Below are positions 41,922-61,696 of a stretch of 64,000 nt of DNA, piece after piece. How positions within the stretch are numbered: position 1 is the stretch's first letter; each line of letters begins with the position of its first letter. The notes beneath the pieces were generated by a model, which was not told the DNA's origin, did not search any database, and saw only the letters and a program-made list of their open reading frames with translations. The stretch comes from Micromonospora narathiwatensis (GTDB lineage Bacteria > Actinomycetota > Actinomycetes > Mycobacteriales > Micromonosporaceae). Made by a program: the position numbers and the translations under genes. The stretch is from assembly GCF_900089605.1 (NCBI RefSeq), contig NZ_LT594324.1, positions 4,650,001-4,714,000 of the forward strand, read 5' to 3'.

Positions 41922-41961
41922 AACGGCCCCGGAGTGCGTTTCCGCAGCTCACGGGGCCGTT
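41922..41961 (-). terminator. Original chromosomal terminator of tRNA-Tyr, now at attL
   Basis: Arms AACGGCCCCG and CGGGGCCGTT (10 bp) with a further inner pairing (AGTGCG/CGCAGCT) form a long hairpin just beyond the left attachment repeat. Before insertion it would have followed tRNA-Tyr. A similar hairpin carried by the element now stands at 61565-61604. Confidence 0.65.
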
Positions 41962-41964
41962 GTT

Positions 41965-42021
41965 GCACCTGGTGGCGGGTAGAGGATTCGAACCTCTGTA
42001 GCTTTCGCGACGGATTTACAG
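41965..42021. repeat. attL, left 57-bp attachment repeat
   Basis: Identical over 57 bases to 61608-61664. On the minus strand it runs from the anticodon loop (CTGTAAATCC) of tRNA-Tyr through the variable and T arms, the acceptor and CCA to four bases beyond. It is the tRNA 3' half left on the chromosome side. Confidence 0.95.
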
Positions 42022-42587: not shown

Positions 42588-44024
42588 TCATCCGAGCGCA
42601 TCGCCGATCTTGTCGTTCATGGTGTCGTCTCCCCCGTCGATGCAGTTGGCGTAGACGCGGAGCAGAACGGCGACGCCGTGGCCCAGGCGCCGGGCGACCT
42701 CGGTCGGCGGGACGCCGGCATTCAGCCAGAGCGAAGCTGCGGCGTGACGTAGGTCATAGGGACGACGGGCCAGCGGCGAGGCCGCCTGAGCCTCGGTCAG
42801 CGCTTTCTCCCGGGCGAGCTTCCACCACCGGTCGTAGACCGACTCGGAGAGCGGCCCGCCGTGGAGGCCCCGGAAGAACCGACCATCCGGGCCAACGCCG
42901 TGATTCTCGACGTGCGCGCACAGCAGCTCGACCAGCCGGGGCGGGATCGGAACGGTCCGAGTTTCCTGCCGCCCCCGGTGCTTGAGGCCGCGCCGCTCGT
43001 GCGAGCCGCCATGATCGGTCCAGTGCGAGCCGGCGCGGGGCGAAGTGCCGGCGAGCACCAGGCGACCCCAGCGGTATTCGATCTTCTCGTGATCGCAGGT
43101 CCCAGACGGCTTGACCGCCGCCAGGTCGTCGAAGTCGGCCCCACAGCCGACGCACCGGCCGGGCAGGTCGCAGTCGTCCCGTCGGAGGTCGGCCGCTTCC
43201 GAGGGGCGCATGCCCGCGTAGTAGAGGCAGCCGAAGAACGCGGTGACCTTGTCGGCCCGTTTGCCGAGAGATTTCACCGCCTCCAGCAGCGCGGCGACCT
43301 GGGTCGGGCTCGCCACCACCCGCCGGTCGATGGACTGGGCGACCTCCGGGGCAGTCCACTGCACCCGGTCGACCGGGTTGGAGTCGATCAACTCCAGCTC
43401 GACGGCGTACCCGAGCACGTTGTAGAAGGTGGCCCGCTTGCGCTGGACCGTGGAGGCAGCCGCGGGCTTGCCGTCGAGGCGTACGCACAGGCTGTCGAGG
43501 ACCCGGCGGACCATCGCGGGTGAGTCCAGCTCGACGACCGGCAGGGACGCGGTTTCCAGCCAGGCCAGCGCCGCCGCGTGTTCGGCCGGGATCTCTTCGG
43601 ACCAGCGACGCGGGTTGAGCCCGTAGAGGTACAGCGCCTCACGGAGCAGAGCGGCATCCGGTCGACCCCGTTTGGTGGGCCGGGCCAGGGTCACCGTGAT
43701 GGAGGTCAGCGCCTCGACGATCGACCGCCGGGTCTTGGCCGCCGCCCGTGGCCACTTCATCTCGACGTACGCGCGGCTGTGCGCGTACCAGGTGGTGGGG
43801 TTCTTGGTCCTCGCCTCGGACACCGGGCGACCGGTTGCCGGGTCGAAGGGCTCCCCCGCGTTGGCCGCCTGGACCAGCTCGGCGCGGAACGAGTGCGCCA
43901 GGGCCTTGGTACGGAACATTTCCTCAAAGCGCTGGCCAGCCACTGCCCAGCGGACCCGCCAGGGCCGAGCCTTCCGGTCGGCGCGCTTGGTGATCTCCCA
44001 GATCTGGACCTCGTAGCTCTTCAT
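42588..44024 (-). CDS. int: Tyrosine integrase of the AICE
   Basis: Site-specific recombinase for integration into and excision from tRNA-Tyr. 478 residues. Catalytic residues R273 (GMRPSEA), R426 (PYDLRH), H449 (RRLGHG) and nucleophile Y458 (VYANC); tyrosine replaces the first histidine of the HxxR box, which is usual in this group. Between box I and box II a segment CVGCGADF...TCDH (residues 291-312) could bind zinc, an insert not typical of the family. The ATG at 44024-44022 follows xis by 8 bases. Confidence 0.96.
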   Translation of the reverse strand: MKSYEVQIWEITKRADRKARPWRVRWAVAGQRFEEMFRTKALAHSFRAELVQAANAGEPFDPATGRPVSEARTKNPTTWYAHSRAYVEMKWPRAAAKTRRSIVEALTSITVTLARPTKRGRPDAALLREALYLYGLNPRRWSEEIPAEHAAALAWLETASLPVVELDSPAMVRRVLDSLCVRLDGKPAAASTVQRKRATFYNVLGYAVELELIDSNPVDRVQWTAPEVAQSIDRRVVASPTQVAALLEAVKSLGKRADKVTAFFGCLYYAGMRPSEAADLRRDDCDLPGRCVGCGADFDDLAAVKPSGTCDHEKIEYRWGRLVLAGTSPRAGSHWTDHGGSHERRGLKHRGRQETRTVPIPPRLVELLCAHVENHGVGPDGRFFRGLHGGPLSESVYDRWWKLAREKALTEAQAASPLARRPYDLRHAAASLWLNAGVPPTEVARRLGHGVAVLLRVYANCIDGGDDTMNDKIGDALG

Positions 44025-44032
44025 GCCGCGTC

Positions 44033-44206
44033 CTACTCCAGCTCACCGAGCCACCGCCCGAGCGCCGACCGGCGAACCCGTAGCTGCCCGTTCGGAAGCT
44101 TGATCACCCGTGGCCCCTTGCCGGTCTGCCGCCAGTAGAACCAGGTCGAGCGCGGTACGCGCAGCTCGGCGAGCACTTCCGGCACGGTCAAAAGCTCCTC
44201 GTTCAA
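44033..44206 (-). CDS. xis: Excisionase
   Basis: 57 residues with a MerR-like winged helix-turn-helix: LLTVPEVLAELRVPRSTWFY then WRQTGKGPRVIKLPNGQLRV. The start is TTG at 44206-44204, supported by GGAGGAGG four bases upstream; it overlaps the rep stop in a TTGA tetranucleotide. It lies 8 bases before int, as in pSAM2 (rep-xis-int). It would bend attachment-site DNA to favour excision. Confidence 0.9.
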   Translation of the reverse strand: MNEELLTVPEVLAELRVPRSTWFYWRQTGKGPRVIKLPNGQLRVRRSALGRWLGELE

Positions 44207-45979
44207 TGCGCCTCCTCCCCCATGTCCTGTGCCTCGTGCTGAGTTGCCGAAAGATCTGGTGACCCCTGGGCGGCCCGGTCCTTGGCGGCGAGCAGTTCGG
44301 CCCGCCAGCGGGCGCGTTCGCTGATCGAGCGCATGAGCCGGTGAGACAGCGGCCCCACGTCGGGGTCGTCGGGCCGGGCGAGTTCCCAGGCGTGCCGGAC
44401 CCGCTCGGCGGTGTCGCCCTGATCGTCGACGAGCTGCCCGATGCCGCCGGCTGTGGCGCTGTCGGTGGTGGCGCCAAGCAGGGCCCGGACCCAGGCCCGT
44501 ACGTCGTGCTTGTGGTCGGCGAGGGTCTTGCCGGACCAGTCGCGGGAGATGAGGATGCGCCGGCCGCCAATGCCGAGGGTGTCTCGCTGGTGGACCTTGC
44601 CCTTGCAGCGGCCGGGCTTGAGCTTGGCGTGTGCCTTGCGCGGCTGGACGCCGTAGAGCAGCCAGTTGGCGCACCGGTCGGTGCAGGGCGTTACCTGGAG
44701 TTGCTGCCAGAGCCGGTCGAGGTGCATGCGTTGCCGGTCGGTGGTCGCCTTGTGGCAGTCCCCGGTGTGCTTGGTGATGTATTTCGTGACGTACCGGATG
44801 GTCCGTTCAGCGTCCTCGGTGCCGGGCATGACGCCGCGGGCGTCGACCTGAGCGCCGAAGCGGACGACGTGTACCGGCTCGGCTTTCGGGTCGTCGTCGA
44901 TGGCGTCGAGGGCTTCCGTCCAGGTGGTCAGCGGCTCGCGGGTATCCGGGTCGACCCACGCCGCTGCCTGCTCGTCCCAGACGGGGAGCCGGTCGAGGGC
45001 GTACCGCTGGACGTCGACCGCCGGCCACCACACCTGGTGGTAGGTCGCTGCCGCCACGGTGCGCAAGACATCCCGGGGGATGGTGCCCCGGATGGCGAAG
45101 TGCGCGTGTGGGGCGAGTCGGCGTTGCGGCTCGACGCAGCCGGCGTACTGGACGTTCCAACCCTCGCAGCGGCGCAGGTTCTGCCAGAACCGGTCGAGCA
45201 GCCGGGGGAAGTGCACGGCGTCCCAGGCCGCCCGGCGGTAGTCGTACCGGTCGACGGTTGACCGGGGTGCCGTCCGGGCGGACCGGGCCGTACGAGTCGA
45301 GCGTGAGCGTGAGCCACATCGACGGCCGGTAGGTCGAGCCGTCCGGGGCGGTGTAGGTCTTGCCGACGGTACGCCGCTCGACCTTGCGTCGGGGCAGGTC
45401 GGGGGCATCCTGACGGCGCTTGGTGGAGCGCTTGCGCCGGCGACCGGGCTCGTCGTCCTGGTCCTCGTCGACGCCCGTGTGGGGTGGGCCGACGCGCCCG
45501 CGCAGGCCCTCAGCGGCGATGGCCTCTTCCACCTCGCGGATCGCCTCGTCGATGTCGGCGGCCTGGTCCCACTGGGCGGCGCGTACCGCCTCGTCACGCG
45601 AGAACTCCAGGTGTGCCCGGAAGAGGATCAGCGACTTCTGCGCCTCGGTCGCGGGTTCCGGGCCGGGTAGGGGCTCGTCGTCGCGGTGCCAACCCTCGCG
45701 GATCTGGGCCTGCCGCAGCCGGCGGTTCTTCTTGGCGCACGGCGGACACTTGTCCTCGCGCGTCGCGCCGCAGGGCAGGTCGATGACTTCGGTCAGGCCA
45801 GTGTCGAGGTCGGTGCGGCGCATGGCCAGCGGCCGGATGCAGACGCCGTACTCGGTGGCGATCTGCTTGAGCACGTCGACCGAGCGGGGCAGCGCCATGC
45901 GGGCCGCCCGCGACCCCGGCCGAGGAGCAACCGGGGCCGGGGCGGCAGGGGCGAGGCCGGGCAGGGTCGGAGCCGTCAT
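44203..45979 (-). pseudogene. RepSA-type replication initiator, frameshifted
   Basis: Rolling-circle initiator of AICEs. From ATG 45979-45977 (in an ATGA overlap with the upstream stop) the frame reads MTAPTLPGLAPAAPAPVAPR, a cysteine cluster (PCGATREDKCPPCAKKNRRL) and up to YGPVRPDGTPVNR near 45260. The continuation VDRYDYRRAAWDAVHFPRLL, with the HUH-like motif APHAHFAIRG, lies in another frame to the stop at 44203. One extra base near 45246-45262 breaks it (1777 bases, 3n+1). Joined, it would be about 591 residues. Real loss, error or programmed shift cannot be told apart here. Confidence 0.85.
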
Positions 45980-46887: not shown

Positions 46888-47142
46888 TTACCTCCGGGCC
46901 GGGGCGACGCGGGTACGAATGTGGTCGGGCGGCTCGCCGAGGGAGGCGACCGCTTCGGAGAGGCAGCGCCACAGCGCCCACGCCTCGTCGGGGGTCAGGT
47001 GCATGCGGCGCCGGCCGCCACCGACAGCGAGATAAACCGGGTACGGGTCCGGCCGGTCGGGGTCGACGCGCACGGACACGGCGGTGCTGGTCGCGCCGTC
47101 GGGGTTCGGAGCGCGGAGCCGGTAGAAGGTCGGAGCAGTCAC
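46888..47142 (-). CDS. Small AICE protein, unknown
   Basis: 84 residues from GTG 47142-47140, in a GTGA overlap with the tra stop. A beta-rich N-terminal half (FYRLRAPNPDGATSTAVSVR, PYPVYLAVGGG) is followed by one amphipathic helix (TPDEAWALWRCLSEAVASLG). Five bases separate it from the next gene. Probably an accessory transfer protein, from position only. Confidence 0.7.
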   Translation of the reverse strand: MTAPTFYRLRAPNPDGATSTAVSVRVDPDRPDPYPVYLAVGGGRRRMHLTPDEAWALWRCLSEAVASLGEPPDHIRTRVAPARR

Positions 47143-48764
47143 CGCGGCTCACCCCCGTCGCTGTCGCGGTCGAGGAAGGTGAGCAGCGAGTCCGGCAGCA
47201 GCGGCCCACGAGGTGGCCGAGGCAGCGCCGGCCGGGTCGGCTCGTCGGCGGTCTCCCGGCCGACCTGGGCGAGGATGTCCGCCGCGTCAGCCGGGGCCGG
47301 GTAGTCGGCGGCCAGCTCCCGGATGTGGTCGTCGGAGACGTACGAGAAGCGGACCCGGGCCGGTTCCGGCGTGCCGTCGAGGATCACGTACCCGACGCCC
47401 TTCGCCCACCGGGGCATCTGATCGGCCAGGGCGCCCCGGTTACGGGCACCGTCGCCCAACACGAGGTCGACCTGAGCCGCCTCGGTCAGCCCGAGCGCGA
47501 TGCGGGTCGGGAACAGGTCGCGGAACGGCAGCACCTCCTTACGCGGGTCCTGCAGCGCGGCCACCACCAGGACGCCGACCCCGGCACCCTGCGACAGCAG
47601 CAGCCCCAGCGAGGACGCGATGCGCTTACGCAGCTCGACGTCTTGGAGGTACGCGGTCAGCGCGGCCATCTCGTCGATGACGACCACGACCAGGGGGTCA
47701 GCCTCGGTCGGGGTGTGCACCCGCACCGCGCCGGCCAGGCGGGTTTGCCGCTCCCGCATCACCGCCACGGCCTCGTCGAGCAGGTCCGCCATCGCCTCGA
47801 AGGACTTGCAGGCGAACCGGGCGAACAGCGGCCGGCCCATGGCGAACTCCATGCCACCCTTGGGGTCGATCACCCACAACCGCACCAGCCCTGAGGTGAT
47901 CCCGCCGGCCAGTGCCCGCACCAACGACCACAGCACCGACCCCTTACCGGACCGGGTGGCACCCCCGATCAGCACATGCGTGGCGAGCAGGTGCAGGCAC
48001 CAGTGCCGCAGATCCTCGCGACGGGCCAGCGGCAGCGCGGTGAAGTCCGGCACCGACGGCACGTCGAACGGCTTCACGACCGTCCGCAGCGCATCCGTAC
48101 GGACCACCACCAGGTAGACCAGCGAGGGCCGGTCGCGGTACCGCAGCCGGTCCACCGCCGACAGCACCAGCGCCCAGTAGCCGGTACGCACCGGCGGCTC
48201 CCCCGGGCGCTCCGAGTAGACCCGGGCGTGTCGACGGCCGAAGGCGTACGCCAGGTTTGCGGTGACCCGCTGGAACTCCTCCGGCGTCTGGCCACGCACC
48301 ATGCGGACGGTCAGTACGTCCAGCGCCTGATCCGACCGCACCCGCAGCAACTGCGGCAGGACGACGCGATGGTCATACGTGCGGGTCAGCCCGCACAGAG
48401 TCATGGCCTCTCGCCAGGCCCGTCGGTAGACGAACACCTGACGGAACCGACCGAGCAGCGGACCCGCGCACCAGGCCCACCAGGACGCCTCGTGCTTCCA
48501 CCGCCATACCGCCGACACGAAGCCGGTCAGGACCAGCGGCACGATCAGCCCGGACCGGCCGAACTCCCGGTAGAGCAGCACGCCGGCCAGCACCAGGCCG
48601 ACGGTGACCGGGTGGCGAAGGCACCACCACAGCCCCCGGCACAGCCACCGCAGCACCAGGCCGAACGCGATCAGCCAAAGCGGCAGTTCCAGCCGGCGTG
48701 GCCGGATCACCATCAAATCCCCGGCCGTGGTCATCACGACCTCACCACGCGGCCGGCGGATCAT
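47139..48764 (-). CDS. FtsK/SpoIIIE-type conjugative translocase (TraSA-like)
   Basis: Hexameric DNA pump that moves double-stranded element DNA between hyphae. 541 residues from ATG 48764-48762. Two hydrophobic segments near residues 30-90 anchor it in the membrane; Walker A GATRSGKGS near residue 267, Walker B VVVVIDEMAAL near 361, and the downstream ALQDPRKEVLPFRDLFPTR typical of Tra. An ATG ten codons in (48734) is an alternative start. A 16-codon frame overlaps its start by ATGA. Confidence 0.94.
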   Translation of the reverse strand: MIRRPRGEVVMTTAGDLMVIRPRRLELPLWLIAFGLVLRWLCRGLWWCLRHPVTVGLVLAGVLLYREFGRSGLIVPLVLTGFVSAVWRWKHEASWWAWCAGPLLGRFRQVFVYRRAWREAMTLCGLTRTYDHRVVLPQLLRVRSDQALDVLTVRMVRGQTPEEFQRVTANLAYAFGRRHARVYSERPGEPPVRTGYWALVLSAVDRLRYRDRPSLVYLVVVRTDALRTVVKPFDVPSVPDFTALPLARREDLRHWCLHLLATHVLIGGATRSGKGSVLWSLVRALAGGITSGLVRLWVIDPKGGMEFAMGRPLFARFACKSFEAMADLLDEAVAVMRERQTRLAGAVRVHTPTEADPLVVVVIDEMAALTAYLQDVELRKRIASSLGLLLSQGAGVGVLVVAALQDPRKEVLPFRDLFPTRIALGLTEAAQVDLVLGDGARNRGALADQMPRWAKGVGYVILDGTPEPARVRFSYVSDDHIRELAADYPAPADAADILAQVGRETADEPTRPALPRPPRGPLLPDSLLTFLDRDSDGGEPR

Positions 48765-50223: not shown

Positions 50224-50974
50224 GCGGTAGGCCGTGCGGGAGCATTGAGGCTAGGGCGTTGGCTCTGGCCTCGACGATCCTCATGCGCGCCTGATACTCG
50301 GCTGGTTCCCGGTGTGCTGCGTGGCCGGTGACCTGACCGGGCCACTTGCGGTAGAGCAGGCCGTATTCGCGGGTGAAGTAGCCCTCGCTGACCGCGTTTG
50401 CGGCGAGCAGCAGGCCGGTATCCTCGGAGGCGGGCAGGGCCATCCAGCCGCCCAGGGCAAAGACGAGATCCCGCCGCAGGCACAGGGTCGCCGGATGCAC
50501 GGATGCCCGGTAGTCGTTGGCCTGCCAGAACGACAGGACGGCACCGCGGGCGATGAGGCCGCCGGCCGGGTCCTTGTCCCATCCGGCGGTCGACCCGTCG
50601 GGCAGCAGGTCGAGTACCCGCGAGGTGGTCCAGCCGATCTGCGGGTGCGCGTCGAACGCGGCGATGTCCCGGGCGAGCGCGCCGGGGGTCAACTGGTCGT
50701 CAGCGTCCAGGACCTTGATGAGTTCTCCGGAAACTCGGGAAAGGGCGAGGGTACGGGCAACACCAGGCCCGCCGGCGCGGCCGGAGCCGACACTGATCCG
50801 GGGATCGTCGGGCAGCACGTCGACCAGGGCGCCGGTCTGCCCGTCCTCCTGGACGAGCCACTGCCAGTCCCAGCCACCGGGCATCTCCTGCTTCACCAGC
50901 GACGCGTAGGTGTCCGCCAGATACGGGATGCTGGGCGTGTGAACCGGAGTGATCACTGAGACGAGCTGAGTCAA
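50207..50974 (-). CDS. Family 2 glycosyltransferase
   Basis: 255 residues from TTG 50974-50972, with AAGGTGG five bases upstream; the TTG overlaps the GntR stop in TTGA, so translation is coupled. GT-A fold motifs: VSVITPVHTPSIPYLADTYA at the N-terminus, WLVQEDGQTG, the metal-binding LDADDQL near residue 90, and ASEDTGLL near 180. No membrane span, so a soluble cytoplasmic transferase. Acceptor unknown. A glycosyltransferase fused by coupling to a transfer regulator is unexpected. Confidence 0.85.
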   Translation of the reverse strand: MTQLVSVITPVHTPSIPYLADTYASLVKQEMPGGWDWQWLVQEDGQTGALVDVLPDDPRISVGSGRAGGPGVARTLALSRVSGELIKVLDADDQLTPGALARDIAAFDAHPQIGWTTSRVLDLLPDGSTAGWDKDPAGGLIARGAVLSFWQANDYRASVHPATLCLRRDLVFALGGWMALPASEDTGLLLAANAVSEGYFTREYGLLYRKWPGQVTGHAAHREPAEYQARMRIVEARANALASMLPHGLPLTPLA

Positions 50975-51939
50975 GTTTTCCACCTTAGCAAGTGGTGCGA
51001 GTAGACAAGCTCCGTCCGGTCACCCGGCATCACCACGTCGGCGACCTCGACGACCCGGCCGGTGGTGTCGATCGAGGTCTTGCGCACAGTGAGCACGGAG
51101 ACGCCCGGGTCGATGTCCAACAGCTCGGCCTCATCCGGTGACGGCGGACGGGCACGGATCTCGTCTTCGATCCGGTCCAGCTCGATGCCGAGCGTATAGA
51201 GCTGATGCTGCGTGCCCCCAGGCCAGGGCTCCTTGCCCGCGTCGAGCAGGTCCGGGTTCGCGGCCACCAGGTCATAGGGCAGGTAGGAGTACGACATGGT
51301 CAACGGCGCGTTCTCGTGCCGGGAGGAGGTCCAGTAGACCCTGCGCAGCAGCGGGGTACCTGGCTCGACCCGCAGCGCCGCCGCCATGTCCGCATCCGCT
51401 TCCACGCGGGTGTACTCGGCGTGGAACTTGAGGTCATCGACGGTCAGGCCGGTGTCGTGCTCGATGGCGCCGGTCTTCAACCGCTCGGCCTCGTCGAGCA
51501 GGACCCGGTCCTTCTCCCACTGGTAGCGCTCGGCGTTGCGACGGCGTACCCGCTGGCGGGGTGCCCGCACATAGGTGCCGCGCCCCTGCTCCGCGCGGAC
51601 CAGGCCCCATTCCCGGAGCTGCCGGATCGCGTTGCGCACGCTGGTGCGAGACAGGCCGGACGACTCGGCTAGCTCCGTCTCGCTCGGCATCAGCGTGCCG
51701 GGGGCCAGCTCCCCGCTCATGATCTTCGCCCGCAACTCCTCCGCGAGTTGCAGGTAACGAGGGCGCCAGTCCCGGCCATGCACACCGGTCACCGTACCCC
51801 CTAGACGTTCCAACGTCTGCCAGGTGGTCCCCCCGGCCGGCCGCTCGGGTACCGGGGTGATGGCCGCCGCGGGCCGCTTCGTCTGCTGCCTGCTCAGCGA
51901 GGGCCTTAGGCTGGTGAGCCGCCGGTCAGTGGTGCTCAT
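50971..51939 (-). CDS. GntR/HutC-family regulator (KorSA-like)
   Basis: 322 residues from ATG 51939-51937 with GGAGAG upstream. A non-conserved N-terminal ~55 residues, a winged helix ([51 protein letters not shown]), then a UTRA ligand-binding domain (TPLLRRVYWTSSRHENAPLT, TVRKTSIDTTGRVVEVADVV). In pSAM2 the equivalent KorSA represses pra and itself. It is likely to bind the CACTTG-type sites in front of pra and of the second GntR gene. It overlaps the upstream gene by 14 bases. Confidence 0.88.
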   Translation of the reverse strand: MSTTDRRLTSLRPSLSRQQTKRPAAAITPVPERPAGGTTWQTLERLGGTVTGVHGRDWRPRYLQLAEELRAKIMSGELAPGTLMPSETELAESSGLSRTSVRNAIRQLREWGLVRAEQGRGTYVRAPRQRVRRRNAERYQWEKDRVLLDEAERLKTGAIEHDTGLTVDDLKFHAEYTRVEADADMAAALRVEPGTPLLRRVYWTSSRHENAPLTMSYSYLPYDLVAANPDLLDAGKEPWPGGTQHQLYTLGIELDRIEDEIRARPPSPDEAELLDIDPGVSVLTVRKTSIDTTGRVVEVADVVMPGDRTELVYSHHLLRWKT

Positions 51940-53564: not shown

Positions 53565-54130
53565 CGCCCGTTCGCACCTTCGATACGTCTTCAAGGCGGC
53601 CCTTGACGGGCCGCACGCGCCGCCGCCAGGGCGCGCGCCGGCCGCTGCCGCTGGCGCTCTGCGGCCGTCACGCCGGATGCCCGGCGACTGGCGCGGACAG
53701 CGGGAAGCCCGGAGGGCCGCCGTAGACCGACAGACCGTTGACGGGTGAGGTGGTGGGCCGGCAGCCGGCAGGGCGCGGCGGCCGTCACGCCACCGCGCCG
53801 TAGGACGAGTCACCGCCGGCCGTGGTGGGGATGCGACGCGGAGTGTGCGGGGCCACCCCTCCAAGGTCAAGGGCGCTCGCGTCGCTACGCGACGGCCCTG
53901 CGGGCCGCCCTTGACCCCGGAGCCTCTGCGACCCCTCGGGCCGGCGTTGCCGGCAGGCCAGGGGCCTGCCCGGGGTCCACGCGCCGCATCCCCACCACAG
54001 CCTCGTCGGCAGGGCCCGCGCCCCACCAAGCGATCCGTCAAGGCCCGCTTGACAGTCATCGGGCCCGCCTTGGCGCCGTGCGAAATCGCACCTACTACGG
54101 CTCCGACATCGATCGTCCGCTTGTCCCTAA
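53565..54130. repeat. Repeat-dense noncoding segment, possible origin or transfer site
   Basis: No convincing gene in 566 bases. The motif CCCTTGAC or its complement GTCAAGG occurs at about 53603, 53866, 53908 and 54035. The pair GTCAAGGGCG (53866-53875) and CGCCCTTGAC (53906-53915) encloses two smaller hairpins (GTCGC/GCGAC and GGCC/GGCC), a three-way-junction layout. AICEs need a double-strand origin and a cis transfer locus; this is the best candidate segment by structure. The IS5-family copy borders it on the right. Confidence 0.4.
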
Positions 54131-55059
54131 GAGCGTGTTTGAGATCGGGTTGATCAGGTCCAGGTGAAGGTGCGGCGGGCTTGACGGCGTGCGGGTTGGC
54201 CGCGGGTGATGCGGCGGGTCATGCCGGCGATGGCGGCCCAGCGGATGAGGGCTTCTGAGACGGAGGGGTGCCGTTCGTAGTCGCGGGCCAGCCGGCGGGA
54301 GACGGTGAGCCAGGCCAGGGTGCGTTCCACGACCCAGCGGCGTGGGTGAACGGCGAAGCCGCGCTGGCCGGCGGGTTTGCGGACGATCTCCAGCGTGGTG
54401 CGCAGGGTGTCGCGGGCCCAGTCGACCAAGCGGCCGGCGAAGCCTTGATCGGCGAAGACGTGCCGGACCGGGGTGAGCATGTAGGCACTGAGCAGGGCGG
54501 TCTTGGCGCCGTCGCGGTCCTGCCAGCTCGCGGCGAGCACCGTCACGCTGACCAGCAGGCCCAGAGTGTCGGTGACGATGAACCGCTTGCGGTTGACCTT
54601 CTTGCCCGCGTCGTAGCCCCGGCTGTCCCGGCCGACCGTGTCGGCGCCCTTCACGCTCTGGGAGTCGATGATCCCCGCCGACGGTTGCAGGTCACGGCCC
54701 TGCTGCACCCGCGCCTTGATCCGCAGCGTGGCCAGGAGTTTCTCGGTGACGCCGGCTTCTTCCCATCGTGTGAAGTACCAGTACACCGTCTGCCAGGGCG
54801 GCAGGTCAGCAGGCAGGTACCGCCACGGGCACCCCGACCGCACCACGTACAGGATCGCGTTGACGATCTCCCGCCGCGGATGCTTCTCCCGGCGGCCGTC
54901 TGTGTTCGGCTCCGGAAGCAGCGGCTCGATCAGCGCCCACTGGGCATCGGTCAGGTCGGACGGGTAGCCACGGCGTGCAGACAACGGACCACACTGCCCA
55001 TCTCGCCGGCGGAAGTCATGCCACCACGCCGTCCACAACAGGCCTTCTCAAACACGCTC
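54131..55059 (-). mobile_element. IS5-family insertion sequence, complete
   Basis: 929 bases bounded by the 14-bp inverted repeats GAGCGTGTTTGAGA and TCTCAAACACGCTC, with a 3-bp target duplication TAA on both sides (54128-54130, 55060-55062). It holds one transposase gene. Insertion took place in the last codons of the restriction-modification gene. Confidence 0.9.
54154..55038 (-). CDS. IS5-family DDE transposase
   Basis: 294 residues in one frame. The DUF4096-like N-terminal domain (YPSDLTDAQWALIEPLLPEP) and the DDE domain: first D in AGIIDSQSVKG, second in FADQGFAGRLVDW, E in RWVVERTLAWL. Start TTG 55038-55036 is the longest option; a TTG at 54984-54982 (MSARRGYPSD...) matches related transposases better. 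The frame is intact, so the copy may still be active. Confidence 0.92.
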   Translation of the reverse strand: MWTAWWHDFRRRDGQCGPLSARRGYPSDLTDAQWALIEPLLPEPNTDGRREKHPRREIVNAILYVVRSGCPWRYLPADLPPWQTVYWYFTRWEEAGVTEKLLATLRIKARVQQGRDLQPSAGIIDSQSVKGADTVGRDSRGYDAGKKVNRKRFIVTDTLGLLVSVTVLAASWQDRDGAKTALLSAYMLTPVRHVFADQGFAGRLVDWARDTLRTTLEIVRKPAGQRGFAVHPRRWVVERTLAWLTVSRRLARDYERHPSVSEALIRWAAIAGMTRRITRGQPARRQARRTFTWT

Positions 55060-58000
55060 TAAGCCGGCCCCGTACTTCTTTTCAACCCATCGCCTATCGG
55101 CGGCGTTCAGCCCGAAGAGGCTAAAAACCGCGATGTCAATGGCTGCGCGGGCTCCGGCGATCTTCCGCGCCAAGACCGTCCTTTCATGCGGAGTGGTGGC
55201 TTTCCTCATCCGCGAAAGTGCGAGCTCAATTTCCTCTCCTTGTTCAATCATGCGATCGCGGACGGACCGAGCCGCCTTCCCCTCGATAAGAGGCACTGGA
55301 AGTGCCTTCAGGTAGGGCGAACTGAACTTGCGATAGCCGCCCTGGAAAGCTGGCGAGTTTTCAGTCGCGAATACGGAGAGAGCTTTAGAATTCAACAGCG
55401 CCAGCAGATAGCGAACGTCTACAGTTCCCGGCCGGGGAGCTACGCCAGCGACGCCTGCCGTGCCAGTTGCGAATAGGTCGCCGTTCCCTCTGGCGAAGTT
55501 TGCGACGTCGCTAAGGCAGGGTGTCAGGAGATGTGACGTTTGAAAGAACCGAGCTCGTTCGACGTACATCAAGCCGTACCACTTCCCAGAAAGCTCAGCA
55601 GCAGACTTGTTGAACCAGACTCGGGTCCCGAGAGCCGCCTTGTGCCGCGACAGATAGGCCCAGGCGTTGGGGAAGTTCCTCAACTCCTCCTCGCTCATTA
55701 ACTCGAATTCGTCGCCTGCATTCCGGTACGGAAATAGCGCCAGCTTTGCGCCAGGTAGGATTTGGAATCCTCGGACGTCTCTCCCTCGAAGGAGCGGAGT
55801 GAGCAACTCGCTCTCAATGCCCTCTGCGGCAGCCTGCTCCGGTGTAAAGGTCAGCAGCTTATCTGAGCCGGTTTGAACACCAGCACCAAAGCGCTCGGTG
55901 ATCTGTTCGAGGGGAGCGCCGCCTATAGCCAATTTCTGGAGCACCTCTTTGCCTTGTGCATCCTGGAAACTCCAGGTGCGGCTTCCGAGATCACTTCGCG
56001 GAACGTTAAAACTCTCAGTTTCCAGTAAATTGGCAGTCAGGCGCGAATACGTTACGTCGGACCTTGCCTCTTTCTTGCTTACAAAAATGACGCAGGAGTA
56101 ATTGGTGGCACGCTCGAAGATCTTCTCCAGGCCAAAGTCTTTGACGGTGTGTAGGCCCGATGTTGTAAGGAGCTCTCGAAGACTCTTGGCTGCGGACGTA
56201 TGGAAAAACTTGTTGGGAATTATGAAGCCGAGCCTGCCATTCTTGGCAAGGAGCCGTAGGGCTTGCTCGACGAATACGTAGTAGAGGTCGAATTTCCCTG
56301 TGGCGCTCAGGAAGTTGTCCTTGAGGTACGGAACGGTATCGGCTACGTAGTAGCCAGCCATTAGCCATGGCGGGTTCCCGACGATCACATCGAAGCCTCG
56401 CCCGTTGGCGACTGCTGGAAACTCTAGGTCCCAGTCGAATGCATTGATGCGACGTTCGATTTCCGGAGATGGAATCAGCGCCTGGCTAGCGTGAAAGGAC
56501 GTCCCTACCAGGCTGTTTCCACACTTGATATTGTCGTCGAGATTCGGTAGTGCCCGTTCGTGGAAGAGTTCCAGCTGCGAGTCGACTGAGCGCTCAGTTT
56601 CGCCTTCTAGGACCTTCAGCAGCAATGCAAGTTTGGTGACCTCGACCGCTTGAGGGTCGATATCGACCCCGTACACATGGGCCAAAAGGATCCGCTTGCG
56701 CTCGGAGGAGGTTAGACGCCACTCGCCTCGTGCTGTCTTCTCAAGCCGTGCGGGTCGAGTCCGCGTGTACCTCTCCGGGCCACTTTTCACATAGTACTCA
56801 AGGTGCCAGTCAAGAAGGTATTGGTAGACTTCAATTAGAAAGCTTCCCGATCCGCACGACGGGTCACAGACGTAAAAACCTGACTTCGACAGCTTCTCCG
56901 GTGAGGCACCTGTCAGAGGTTCCTTCATCGCAGCGCTTACGATGTCTCGAACTACACCTGTCGGAGTGTAGAAAACCCCGCCGGCCTTGCGAACCTCCGG
57001 CTTATCTTCGACTACTGCGGCTCTGCCCGAAAGGGTAATCACCTTGCCGAGGAACTGTTCGTAGACTTGCCCTAAGATGTCGGGTGGCAGCACGGCGAAA
57101 TCGTAGGGGCCTTCTGGCCAGTAGAGGCGACGTACGAAACGTCGGAGAATCTCGGAGCCGATCTTGAGCTGCGGTGTAAGGGTGTCAGGGGTATCTTGGC
57201 GGTGCTCTTTCCTGAGATGGAAAAGGCCGCTGTTGTATTTCTCGTCGGCACGCCTGAACCTGTTGAGCAACTGTCGGTAGCTGTTTTCTTCGTTGACATC
57301 AGAAAGCAGTTGGCCGTACGGCTCCAGGCCCCGGTCCTCACAAACCCGCAGGAAAACGAGGCGGTCGATTGTTAGTTGGACCGCAAAATTCAGTTCCTCG
57401 GAGGAGAGCGGGTTGAGGGCGGCGAGCTCGCCAGCTAGGAGTACACGCCACTCTTCGAGTTCGGAAAGGAAAGCCTTGTCAACCCGCTGCCAGCCGCGGG
57501 CTGTGGATGTCCGCCCAAAGAATGCGGGAATGGAACCCGCAGCTACGGCGTCCCTGCTGAAACGCTCCTCAACATAGTCCCAGCGCTTTACGTAGTCCTC
57601 GACCGTAAGGTACTCCAGCAGGGCGACCGAAGCTCTGTCGCCAGCGGCCGGCGGCACTCGACAGTCGTATATCGACAGTTCCTGAAAGTCAGTTAGTAGA
57701 CCAACAGCGATTTGCCCCGAGTTCCACCCGTAGCGCCTTAACTGCAGTGCCGGTGCCGGATCATCGCGAAGGCGCACCGAAGGCTTCTTCGCCTCTACGA
57801 TGAACGCAGGTTCCCCGAATGCCTGGAATAGGTAGTCAGGAGCCTTTGTTTGGGCTCCCACTCTAAGCCGCGCCTCGGTGATAACCTCGCGGCTGCATTC
57901 TGGGACATTCTGATGGTTGGTGACGTCCCAACCCAGGGCTTGGAAGAAGGGGTTGAGGAAGTCGACCCGTACTCGCGCCTCCAAATAGCTCGGTGATTCG

Positions 58001-58092
58001 AATTCGGCACGACGGCCAAGGAATCGCTCAACCAATTCCTCGACGGCTGGCGGGACGGGCAAAGGATCCTCCGAGGGCGCGGAAGGGGCCAT
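55048..58092 (-). CDS. Type IIG restriction-modification enzyme (Eco57I-like)
   Basis: Single-chain endonuclease and adenine methyltransferase. 1014 residues from ATG 58092-58090. N-terminal PD-(D/E)xK-like nuclease (KAPDYLF, then FIVEAKKPSV near 100), helical region, N6-adenine methylase with motif I VCDPSCGSGSFL (~411) and motif IV VIVGNPPW (~573), and a C-terminal target-recognition region. The G+C content is clearly lower than its neighbours (about half in the lines counted), a sign of transfer. The last three codons before the stop come from the IS5-family inverted repeat. Confidence 0.92.
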   Translation of the reverse strand: MAPSAPSEDPLPVPPAVEELVERFLGRRAEFESPSYLEARVRVDFLNPFFQALGWDVTNHQNVPECSREVITEARLRVGAQTKAPDYLFQAFGEPAFIVEAKKPSVRLRDDPAPALQLRRYGWNSGQIAVGLLTDFQELSIYDCRVPPAAGDRASVALLEYLTVEDYVKRWDYVEERFSRDAVAAGSIPAFFGRTSTARGWQRVDKAFLSELEEWRVLLAGELAALNPLSSEELNFAVQLTIDRLVFLRVCEDRGLEPYGQLLSDVNEENSYRQLLNRFRRADEKYNSGLFHLRKEHRQDTPDTLTPQLKIGSEILRRFVRRLYWPEGPYDFAVLPPDILGQVYEQFLGKVITLSGRAAVVEDKPEVRKAGGVFYTPTGVVRDIVSAAMKEPLTGASPEKLSKSGFYVCDPSCGSGSFLIEVYQYLLDWHLEYYVKSGPERYTRTRPARLEKTARGEWRLTSSERKRILLAHVYGVDIDPQAVEVTKLALLLKVLEGETERSVDSQLELFHERALPNLDDNIKCGNSLVGTSFHASQALIPSPEIERRINAFDWDLEFPAVANGRGFDVIVGNPPWLMAGYYVADTVPYLKDNFLSATGKFDLYYVFVEQALRLLAKNGRLGFIIPNKFFHTSAAKSLRELLTTSGLHTVKDFGLEKIFERATNYSCVIFVSKKEARSDVTYSRLTANLLETESFNVPRSDLGSRTWSFQDAQGKEVLQKLAIGGAPLEQITERFGAGVQTGSDKLLTFTPEQAAAEGIESELLTPLLRGRDVRGFQILPGAKLALFPYRNAGDEFELMSEEELRNFPNAWAYLSRHKAALGTRVWFNKSAAELSGKWYGLMYVERARFFQTSHLLTPCLSDVANFARGNGDLFATGTAGVAGVAPRPGTVDVRYLLALLNSKALSVFATENSPAFQGGYRKFSSPYLKALPVPLIEGKAARSVRDRMIEQGEEIELALSRMRKATTPHERTVLARKIAGARAAIDIAVFSLFGLNAADRRWVEKKYGAGLERV

Positions 58093-58287
58093 GTTTTCGT
58101 TCTTGTAGGCCTCAGAGCCTATCTCGCCTTGTTACACGAGGTGACCGACGACGTCTATGGGCCGTGTGGGCACAGCCGGGGTGCCGGGCTGGTCCCGGGG
58201 GTGCGCTGGGCGCGCGTTGCAGCAGCTCCTGTCGCCAGCCTCCGGCCGGCAGGCGGGTGCTCGATGCCCGCACTCTGACCGCTGGCC

Positions 58288-58317
58288 TTGACTGTCTGGC
58301 TGTGACACACTCACAAT
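58288..58317 (+). promoter_or_regulatory. Promoter and operator-like palindrome before the RAMA gene
   Basis: TTGACT (58288-58293), 18 bases, CACAAT (58312-58317). The palindrome TGTGA-CACAC-TCACA (58301-58315) spans the spacer end and most of the -10. A ribbon-helix-helix protein such as the product of this gene would be a natural ligand, giving autorepression. Confidence 0.5.
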
Positions 58318-58350
58318 GTGATGCGTCGGGCAGTCAAGGAGGTCGACGTG

Positions 58351-58752
58351 ATGCCAACGATTCGGATCGATGATGAAGTCTACGAGCTGCTCCAGCGGAA
58401 AGCGCAGCCGTTCGTGGACACCCCGAACAGCGTGCTGCGACGGGAGCTGGGGTTGACTGATGAACCGGTGCAGGCCAGGCCGGAGCGTCGTACCAACGCG
58501 CCCGGCGAACTTGCACCCCTGCTGAAGGCGGGCCTGCTGAAGGTAGGCGAGGAACTGGTGTGGAAACGCCGCCAGTCCATGCACCGGGCCGTTGTGACAG
58601 CCGACGGCTGGCTCGAACTGGAGGACGGCCGGCCATTCGAGACGCCGTCAGGTGCCGCCCGAGCGCTCTCAGGGTATGAGGTGAATGGCTGGCGCAACTG
58701 GGGGCGAGCTCGCGACGGGGTGCGGCTCTCGTCGCTCCGCGACCAACTCTGA
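58351..58752 (+). CDS. Ribbon-helix-helix plus RAMA-domain protein
   Basis: 133 residues from ATG 58351 with AAGGAGG eight bases upstream (a GTG one codon earlier is possible). N-terminal strand and two helices (MPTIRIDDEVYELLQRKAQP, SVLRRELGL) look like a SeqA/ribbon-helix-helix DNA-binding unit. Residues ~60-133 match the RAMA domain, linked to adenine methylases and restriction systems: LLKAGLLKVGEELVWKRR, then DGRPFETPSGAARALSG, then NGWRNWGRA. It is divergent from the type IIG gene (258 bases), so a methylation-sensing controller is inferred. Confidence 0.75.
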   Translation: MPTIRIDDEVYELLQRKAQPFVDTPNSVLRRELGLTDEPVQARPERRTNAPGELAPLLKAGLLKVGEELVWKRRQSMHRAVVTADGWLELEDGRPFETPSGAARALSGYEVNGWRNWGRARDGVRLSSLRDQL

Positions 58753-58977
58753 CAGGTTGGCACCGGCTCGGCCGGCGCAGTCCATCAGGCGTAGGACTTG
58801 AGGCGATGGCGAGAGGGCCTGGGTCGGAGTGTGCGAAGTGCATGTCGGCCCAGGCCAACGGACGCGGCGCAAGGCCTTAAGGCTGCAGCGTGAGGCGCGA
58901 ATGGGTGACGGCAGATTTGTCAGTGCTGCTCCGTACCATCTCCGATGGTCTGTCACCTAGCGTCAGGAAGATCAGCC

Positions 58978-59928
58978 ATGCCCAACGCTGTCGCATTTCG
59001 TGATCAACTCATGGACTGGGTTTACGAGAAGGCACACGGAAGCGTCACGGAAAACATTCCGATCATGGAGTTCGCCGAAGGCGTGGGCCTGAATCGGGAC
59101 GGTGCGTACACGCTGCTTCGGTTCTGCCGGGACCAGGGCCTCCTGAACGACAAGGCATCGGGGATGGGCAACCCCTGCGCTCTCCTCACGTCGTACGGGA
59201 TCGCCGACGTCTTGGAGCGTCGGCGTCGGCGCGCTGACCCGGCACTGCGCGCGGGGGCGTGCCGGACTGGCCTTCTGCGATGGTTCTACCGGCAGCGCAT
59301 CGCTCAGGTTCACATGCCGATCACCGGCGAGTTCGGCGATGACGACGAGGCGCTCTGGGAAGGCACCCGCTTCTCGGACATCGAGATCGAGGACGCGGCC
59401 GAGTACCTCGCCGACAAACGGTTGATCAAAGGTGTCAATGTCGACCAGCTCCGCGGCCCGGTCCGGGCCGAGATCACGAGCGAGGGCATCGACTGCGTCA
59501 CCGACTGGGAGGGCAACGTGTCGCAATACCTGCGGGACCAGCGCGGCTACGGGCCGACGAACTACCACGGCCCGGTGATCCACGGGAACGCTCAGGGCGG
59601 GCAGTGGGCGTGGGGCAACCGCGACGTGACGCAGAACCAGACCACCCCGGCGGTTGCGCCGGGTTTCGAGCCGCTTGCGGAAGCCGTCGCCGCAATCCTC
59701 AAGCAGCTCCCGGCCTTCGGCCTCGACCCCGACGACCAGCTGGATATTGAGGCGGCTGCGAACGAGGTGCTGGCCGAGGTGCAGCAGCGGGACCCAGAAC
59801 CACGGCGAGTCCGCCGGGTGCTCGCCGCCCTCAAGGGTTTCCTCATGCCCCTCGCGCTTGACGCGGCCCGGGAAGAGGTCCGTGAGCTCGCACAGCAGGG
59901 TCTCGACCAGATCAACGCGTCGTTGTGA
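58978..59928 (+). CDS. Hypothetical protein with two winged-helix-like domains
   Basis: 316 residues from ATG 58978 with AGGAAGA six bases upstream. Residues 1-80 and 90-190 each look like a winged helix (MEFAEGVGLNRDGAYTLLRF; IEDAAEYLADKRLIKGVNVD). Then a glycine/asparagine-rich strand segment (PVIHGNAQGGQWAWGNRDVT), of the kind seen in actinobacterial proteins of unknown, often immunity-related, context, and a helical C-terminus (DQLDIEAAANEVLAEVQQRD...). Family not recognised. It is in line with the RAMA gene, 225 bases downstream. Confidence 0.75.
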   Translation: MPNAVAFRDQLMDWVYEKAHGSVTENIPIMEFAEGVGLNRDGAYTLLRFCRDQGLLNDKASGMGNPCALLTSYGIADVLERRRRRADPALRAGACRTGLLRWFYRQRIAQVHMPITGEFGDDDEALWEGTRFSDIEIEDAAEYLADKRLIKGVNVDQLRGPVRAEITSEGIDCVTDWEGNVSQYLRDQRGYGPTNYHGPVIHGNAQGGQWAWGNRDVTQNQTTPAVAPGFEPLAEAVAAILKQLPAFGLDPDDQLDIEAAANEVLAEVQQRDPEPRRVRRVLAALKGFLMPLALDAAREEVRELAQQGLDQINASL

Positions 59929-61564: not shown

Positions 61565-61604
61565 AACGGCCCCCGATCAGCATTTCTGCTGGTCAGGGGC
61601 CGTT
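61565..61604 (-). terminator. Element-borne terminator after tRNA-Tyr
   Basis: AACGGCCCC...GGGGCCGTT (9 bp) with an inner stem GATCAGCA/TGCTGGTC and a TTTC loop, ending 9 bases beyond the tRNA CCA. Same outer arms as the chromosomal hairpin at 41922-41961 but a different inner stem, so the element supplies its own terminator. Confidence 0.7.
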
Positions 61605-61607
61605 ATC

Positions 61608-61664
61608 GCACCTGGTGGCGGGTAGAGGATTCGAACCTCTGTAGCTTTCGCGACGGATTTACAG
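61608..61664. repeat. attR, right 57-bp attachment repeat
   Basis: Identical to 41965-42021. It forms the 3' half of the complete tRNA-Tyr gene, from the anticodon loop onward, restored by the element. Confidence 0.95.
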
Positions 61665-61696
61665 TCCGCTCCCATTGGCCGCTCGGGCAACCCGCC
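61613..61696 (-). tRNA. tRNA-Tyr (GTA anticodon), CCA encoded, AICE target
   Basis: Class II tRNA: acceptor GGCGGGT with ACCCGCC, D arm TGCCCGAGCGGCCAATGGGA, anticodon loop CTGTAAA carrying GTA, a long variable arm (GTCGCGAAAGCTAC), T arm GGTTCGAATCC, then A and the encoded CCA (61615-61613). The 5' half is chromosomal and the 3' half belongs to the integrated element. Confidence 0.97.

Follow-up and report, generated by a model that had tools for sequence, protein, structure and literature searches.

The sparing of hosts by mobile restriction systems has been best worked out for the C proteins of type II systems and in a few cases of promoter methylation. As presented in PMC12707154, C proteins bind DNA through a helix-turn-helix (HTH) and are co-transcribed with the nuclease gene; the same source states that the C-terminal domain of SeqA from Escherichia coli binds hemimethylated Dam sites. 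Omega-type ribbon-helix-helix (RHH) repressors of toxin-antitoxin loci bind short sites that recur in the promoter of their own gene (PMC3874152). Published structures show DNA contact by the RAMA domain in both CcrM and MPND (PMC9963953). Here we describe a 64,000-nt stretch of the Micromonospora narathiwatensis genome (contig NZ_LT594324.1, positions 4,650,001 to 4,714,000; hereafter the window), in which a gene for a small protein made of a SeqA N-terminal-like (SeqA_N) module and a RAMA domain lies divergently from the gene of a single-chain type IIG restriction-modification enzyme. The best-supported role of the SeqA_N-RAMA protein appears to be autoregulation, a reading that we regard as evenly poised between right and wrong.

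Like SeqA, the window protein begins with a short N-terminal module, matching by family profile, and continues with a second domain that has links to adenine methylation, but this C-terminal domain is RAMA and the family is found in defence islands. CcrM and MPND share the domain by profile, weakly; there RAMA belongs to a methylase or accompanies an MPN domain, whereas here it follows a SeqA-N-like module. As with C proteins, a small gene stands beside a restriction gene and has repeats at its own promoter, but the protein gives no HTH match and its gene is divergent from the IIG gene. Repeated short sites at the own promoter are also the point of likeness with the Omega-type repressors, although binding is only proposed here; those repressors are tied to toxin-antitoxin operons and, unlike the window protein, are not known to carry a RAMA domain. 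Divergent restriction-modification promoters are found in CfrBI too, where methylation acts directly, blocking RNA polymerase at one of the promoters, and the passage on this system names no reader protein (PMC12707154).

The SeqA_N-RAMA protein and its promoters

A preliminary description of the locus had joined a RAMA domain to an RHH unit. The RAMA domain was borne out by a hidden Markov model search of the 133-residue protein, in which PF18755 scored 67.4 bits against a gathering cut-off of 35.2, and the same part of the protein matched the PADLOC candidate defence model PDC-S14 (59.8 bits). The RHH unit was supported as a dimerising type of N-terminal module, with the RHH label itself less certain: none of the Pfam RHH families gave a match at E<=1, VAPB_antitox being noted at E 0.24. 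Neither HTH families nor the SeqA C-terminal domain PF03925 were among the Pfam matches at E<=1, RAMA filling the C-terminal part. With the single sequence SeqA_N (PF17206) scored 15.1 bits, under the 23-bit cut-off. The profile of a 34-row family alignment (A1; 34 of 120 listed homologues, 238 found) retrieved the SeqA N-terminal structures first (1xrx, E 2e-4; 3fmt, E 4e-4), followed by weaker matches to the RAMA part of CcrM (6pbd, E 0.05), to a chain of the RHH repressor AvtR (4hv0, E 0.79) and to MPND (7ydt, E 1). Profile positions 2-44 aligned to the SeqA-N structures and 48-125 to CcrM, and residues 1-36 hold 19 of the 37 invariant or near-invariant alignment columns. SeqA-N has an RHH-like fold, and its role is oligomerisation. 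By these comparisons the N-terminal module matches the SeqA N-terminal domain more closely than a standard RHH family, and its assignment to the dimerising type is supported. The ATG at 58351 is preceded by AAGGAGG (58336-58342); GTG 58348 is another possible start, and the list of open reading frames (ORFs) gives 144 residues from GTG 58318.

The full-length relatives detected are actinobacterial. From P0051 onward, most of the 120 listed homologues match the N-terminal part alone, often together with Mrr_N, and two carry PF03925. A phage-borne family was rejected, since annotated phages gave no family match at E<=0.01; viral contigs gave two short matches to the N-terminal part. In the open-licence literature searched, no paper was recognised as describing a SeqA_N-RAMA or RHH-RAMA protein, and this is a little-described architecture of a defence-island protein. 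The N-terminal module by itself matches across many phyla (L032-L077). At one locus (L167:7595-8447) two RAMA-type ORFs form a tandem same-strand pair with the SeqA_N module on the second.

The divergent arrangement reported for the two genes was confirmed, with 258 bp between the ATGs. A sigma-70-like site, TTGACT-18-CACAAT, ahead of the RAMA gene was the sole promoter-like site detected in 57900-59000 (0.2 expected), so that the palindrome TGTGA-N5-TCACA, which had been placed over the -10 of this gene, does overlap the spacer and CACAAT. The promoter is thereby supported as operator-like. The window contains the palindrome a single time (0.02 expected from shuffled sequence), as does the 6.6-Mb genome (about 0.8 expected if bases are independent and GC is assumed to be 72%). 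A 5+5 palindrome picked post hoc is not remarkable and is weak evidence alone, and we estimate that inverted repeats with 5-bp arms and spacers of 0-15 arise about once per 80 bp. At the window's RAMA promoter the repeat statistic gave P 0.04 for inverted repeats and P 0.225 for direct and inverted repeats together, a borderline result. A CRP-type site was set aside: the halves resemble the CRP consensus, yet they are separated by 5 positions instead of 6.

The promoters of the family carry the argument for autoregulation. From 62 loci given, 59 upstream regions of SeqA_N-RAMA genes were used, including the window's; L018, L111 and L189 were dropped as lacking the start or the N-terminus. Repeats exceeded shuffles at P<0.05 in 21 of the 59 unclustered regions. 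When these were collapsed by hand to 36, groups being counted as medians, the figure was 11 of 36, compared with 24 of 231 control promoters drawn from the same loci (Fisher P 0.0024). Pure chance is disfavoured by these repeats as the source of such palindromes in the family, although it may still account for the one at the window locus.

Shared words were assessed in clades of 10, 6, 5 and 6 promoters (27 of the 59) against random sets from 83 low-GC control promoters. The near-duplicates L130, L132, L133 and L183 were excluded and a Streptomyces set stood outside the test, which superseded an earlier one whose whole-locus background favoured AT-rich words. ATCTCC was present in 7/10 promoters of one clade (P 0.0025), ACTTAAA in 5/6 of its clade and AATCTC in 6/6 of its clade (0/2000 control draws for each of the latter two). 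That short repeats are commoner in family than in control promoters points to autoregulation; taken by itself, the clade of the window gives no significant result. The strand residues (TIRID, RIEID and HKIEVD, for example) and the words both appear to differ by clade, an impression that would fit strand recognition.

Neighbourhoods of the family and the proposed role

Relatives of the protein are promiscuous: their genes lie near IIG, BsuBI/PstI, BREX, DUF499/DUF1156, ABC-3C or GmrSD genes, or near no defence gene. Most neighbours were judged from ORF lists, and 19 non-family neighbours and a ParE-like gene of L017 were scanned against Pfam. In L126 the RAMA gene is divergent from an Eco57I-type methylase gene accompanied by a BsuBI/PstI endonuclease. 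Each of the 11 Streptomyces loci, which represent nine species or strains, has an ABC-3C-type gene for 313-317 residues beginning 24-28 bp downstream of the SeqA_N-RAMA gene; in L030, the one scanned with Pfam, it encodes ABC-3C CTD10 and is followed by DUF2326, while genes for a UvrD helicase and an N6 methylase lie upstream. Several promoters of this Streptomyces set (L019-L021, L023-L026, L029-L031, L059) are spanned by inverted repeats, for example TTTTTCTC/GAGAAAAA. Streptantibioticus (L028) has an Eco57I-type methylase and a helicase instead. A GmrSD-type gene (L128), an NB-ARC/TPR gene (L127) and a NACHT gene (L129) were found at further loci. No recognised defence gene was seen beside the EF-G-like neighbour in L022 or in L116 and L118-L122, whose neighbourhood was read from sequence as purK-like.

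On plasmids, 9 of 18 matching records cover at least 80% of the protein. In Rhodococcus opacus pCP135 (L187:6989-14390) the gene stands on the same strand 506 bp ahead of DUF1819, DUF1788, brxC and pglX, annotated and BREX-type. Two plasmid relatives adjoin DUF499 genes, one of them also DUF1156, and for one more the distance to a class I DNA methyltransferase, accompanied by a specificity subunit, is about 4 kb. In the remaining five records no DNA methylase is annotated over the stretch displayed, their gene tables being incomplete; one of the five has an unspecified S-adenosylmethionine-dependent methyltransferase.

The preliminary description had called for a survey of such genes beside IIG genes in other genomes, and this gave a divided answer: a specific pairing with IIG genes was not supported (see below), but N6 methylases are close by more often than expected. 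A match to PF02384 or PF07669, the two families searched, lay within 5, 10 and 20 kb in 5, 8 and 12 of 39 genomes, compared with 0.15, 0.30 and 0.59 expected at a random site; for 5 kb the enrichment had P 3.5e-7, or 1.4e-5 with the own genome excluded. The 39 comprise the own genome, 29 other Micromonosporaceae and 9 further genomes, G017 (no N-terminal part) and RAMA-only rows being excluded; in G082 and G110 the match begins no earlier than profile positions 25 and 21. Hits separated by under 4 kb were counted as one and genome sizes were rounded, and the genomes are related and their assemblies broken. The counts show residence in methylase-bearing islands, not one-to-one pairing.

The protein could instead be an accessory DNA-binding part of defence systems rather than a regulator, with SeqA-like multimers coating or marking DNA and helping or restraining neighbouring enzymes. 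The SeqA-N profile match, the PDC-S14 match of the RAMA part and the many homologues with the N-terminal part only, often with Mrr_N, speak for this, as do RAMA domains fused elsewhere to nucleases and DUF3780, as reported in PMC11037411 and PMC12839542. Since repeat-rich promoters fit autoregulation and the protein has no fixed enzyme partner, we hold the accessory role to be unlikely.

In the autoregulatory model the RHH-like N-terminal module would form dimers or multimers and, together with RAMA, bind the short-repeat array over the protein's own promoter, which would limit its own synthesis. DNA binding by the module, repression through that binding and DNA contact by RAMA are what we infer. 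The protein would belong to defence islands and mobile elements, not to one enzyme, and in the window's element it is carried as the divergent neighbour of the IIG gene.

Several results weigh against this model. In the window's own clade CTGTCT is found in 4/5 promoters (P 0.086) and the best 7-mer has P 0.18, neither of them significant, and the best 7-mer of the ATCTCC clade is not significant either (P 0.093). The clades were grouped by eye from the N-termini. Six Micromonosporaceae genomes in four genera supplied the six AATCTC promoters (L116, L118-L122), apparently copies of a single orthologous locus; part of their sharing may therefore be due to descent. SeqA-N oligomerises without binding DNA, and the N-terminal module may therefore not read DNA either. 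Lastly, no PF02384 or PF07669 match was found within 20 kb in 27 of the 39 genomes, and in 15 of these 27 none was on the same contig, some contigs being short.

A broader proposal, which we consider doubtful, is that SeqA_N-RAMA proteins might be general methylation-responsive regulators of methylation-based defence, binding clade-specific arrays with an occupancy that RAMA makes follow the adenine methylation of the nearby system (IIG, BREX, DUF499/DUF1156 or type II). If true, defence would be adjusted according to whether self DNA already carries its mark, for example once an element has moved. With a SeqA-like head coupled to a candidate reader of methylated DNA, promoters rich in repeats and a recurrent position close to methylases, the family of this 133-residue protein is a small and concrete candidate for methylation-coupled regulation, and it would offer a bacterial test of N6-methyladenine (6mA) reading by RAMA.

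The IIG enzyme and its possible control

The type IIG assignment of the divergent gene was corroborated by a nearly full-length match to PADLOC REase_MTase_IIG (PDLC03604; 672.8 bits, residues 17-1000, profile 10-1001 of 1011). Pfam matches were Eco57I, N6_Mtase, HSDR_N and TaqI_C, the last at 27 bits barely above its cut-off of 26.5. The PD-ExK nuclease motif (PDYLF...VEAK), methylase motif I (DPSCGSGSF) and motif IV (NPPW) are intact; simple patterns for the three were found in 109, 114 and 120 of the 120 listed IIG proteins, the window's own included. Judged by these features, the ORF is of the type IIG class, with nuclease, N6-methylase and specificity regions in one chain and predicted cleavage and methylation activity. 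An alternative start is TTG 58062 (residue 11), with GGAGG ahead, and a 1004-residue form is on record. The final residues, LERV, are encoded by the terminal repeat of an abutting IS4/5-type insertion sequence; since the close homologues P0122 and P0123 run past this point or stop near it, the enzyme is probably intact. GC content is about 54-58% across most of the gene, compared with about 64-72% around it.

The two genes may simply be separate cargo of one element with no functional link, which would be compatible with autoregulation. The varied neighbourhoods of the family fit this, defence genes cluster anyway, and none of the six distant IIG relatives (29-39% identity) had a SeqA_N-RAMA gene in the searched flanks (about 6 kb for four, 1.5 kb for two). 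The last result disfavours an IIG-specific partner. A BsuBI/PstI-specific partner was likewise disfavoured: 11 of 300 genomes have this endonuclease and the SeqA_N-RAMA gene is alongside in 1 of the 11, as judged by a match list whose first look scored 11 candidates per genome. Recurrence of the two genes in a second strain speaks against chance neighbourhood. Among the IIG relatives, P0122 (84% identity) and P0123 (83%) are closest, and the RAMA protein P0002 is 85% identical to the window's. P0123 and P0002 both bear the name Micromonospora echinaurantiaca, and each lists two contigs of which the longest measures 216,851 bases, so that joint travel of the pair is probable. The IIG pairing is thus supported in one further strain only, and an absence of any link between the genes seems to us of low probability. 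In L176 and L178 an IIG-like gene is divergent from a second ORF, of 534-537 residues with an NPPY motif.

The preliminary description had gone further and proposed a new kind of C protein, reading the methylation made by its neighbour and so restraining or releasing the IIG gene on entry into a new host. Its setting is realistic, since the genes lie in an integrative element, and the divergent 258-bp region, the methylase enrichment, the second divergent methylase pairing in L126 and the recurrence of both genes in M. echinaurantiaca would all suit such a controller. The C-protein logic, however, is unsupported, because, with both activities in one chain, transcription has no means of holding the nuclease back until after the methylase, and the genes are divergent with no HTH match in the small protein. 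Nor was a site controlling the IIG gene found: the CTGTCT and TGTGA/TCACA words occur at the promoter of the RAMA gene, whereas close to the IIG start only a lone CTGTC (58229) was seen, and the palindrome is 209 bp from that start. That the gene was missing from the searched flanks of the six distant IIG relatives, and stands alongside the endonuclease in 1 of the 11 BsuBI/PstI genomes, also speaks against a dedicated controller. For single-chain enzymes, control by assembly has been proposed (PMC12707154). RAMA as a 6mA reader is itself contested (PMC9963953, PMC11037411): as summarised in PMC9963953, DNA binding by MPND was unchanged by 6mA in one study, an earlier pull-down reported binding of 6mA-DNA, and the CcrM RAMA domain contacts the backbone only. 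Methylation-sensing control of the IIG gene is possible, but we judge it improbable.

The integrative element

Integrase, RepSA, an FtsK-like gene, a GntR regulator and an attachment repeat in a tRNA gene are the hallmarks of pSAM2-type elements. All were found between 41953 and 61664 (Table 1), and by these features the region is a 19.7-kb pSAM2-type integrative element in tRNA-Tyr with the IIG and RAMA genes as cargo and with predicted excision and transfer.

Table 1. Positions of the features in the window
Feature	Position	Strand	Remarks
SeqA_N/RHH-like and RAMA protein	58351-58752	+	133 aa from ATG 58351
SeqA-N-like module	58351-58458	+	residues 1-36; family alignment and profile
RAMA domain (PF18755)	58462-58749	+	Pfam
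Sigma-70-like promoter of the RAMA gene	58288-58317	+	TTGACT-18-CACAAT; promoter scan
Palindrome TGTGA-CACAC-TCACA	58301-58315		overlaps spacer and -10
Second palindrome TCACA-A-TGTGA	58311-58321		overlaps the first
9-nt perfect inverted repeat, left arm	58286-58294	+	brackets both palindromes with right arm
9-nt perfect inverted repeat, right arm	58331-58339	+	overlaps ribosome-binding site
Single-chain IIG-type restriction-modification enzyme	55048-58092	-	1014 aa; PADLOC, Pfam and motifs
Left attachment repeat	41953-42021	+	69 nt, 2 mismatches to right copy
Right attachment repeat	61596-61664	+	69 nt; overlaps tRNA-Tyr
tRNA-Tyr	61613-61696	-	
Phage-type integrase (PF00589)	42588-44024	-	
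RepSA replication initiator	44203-45597	-	
FtsK/SpoIIIE-type protein	47139-48764	-	probably transfer gene
GntR-UTRA regulator	50971-51939	-	
IS4/5-type insertion sequence	54127-55063	-	transposase 54154-55038; right terminal repeat forms last IIG codons

For the 327-residue ORF after the RAMA gene (58945-59928) Pfam yielded nothing at E<=1, and its PADLOC and NCBIfam matches did not rise above chance level. The IS4/5-type insertion sequence has one full copy in the genome.

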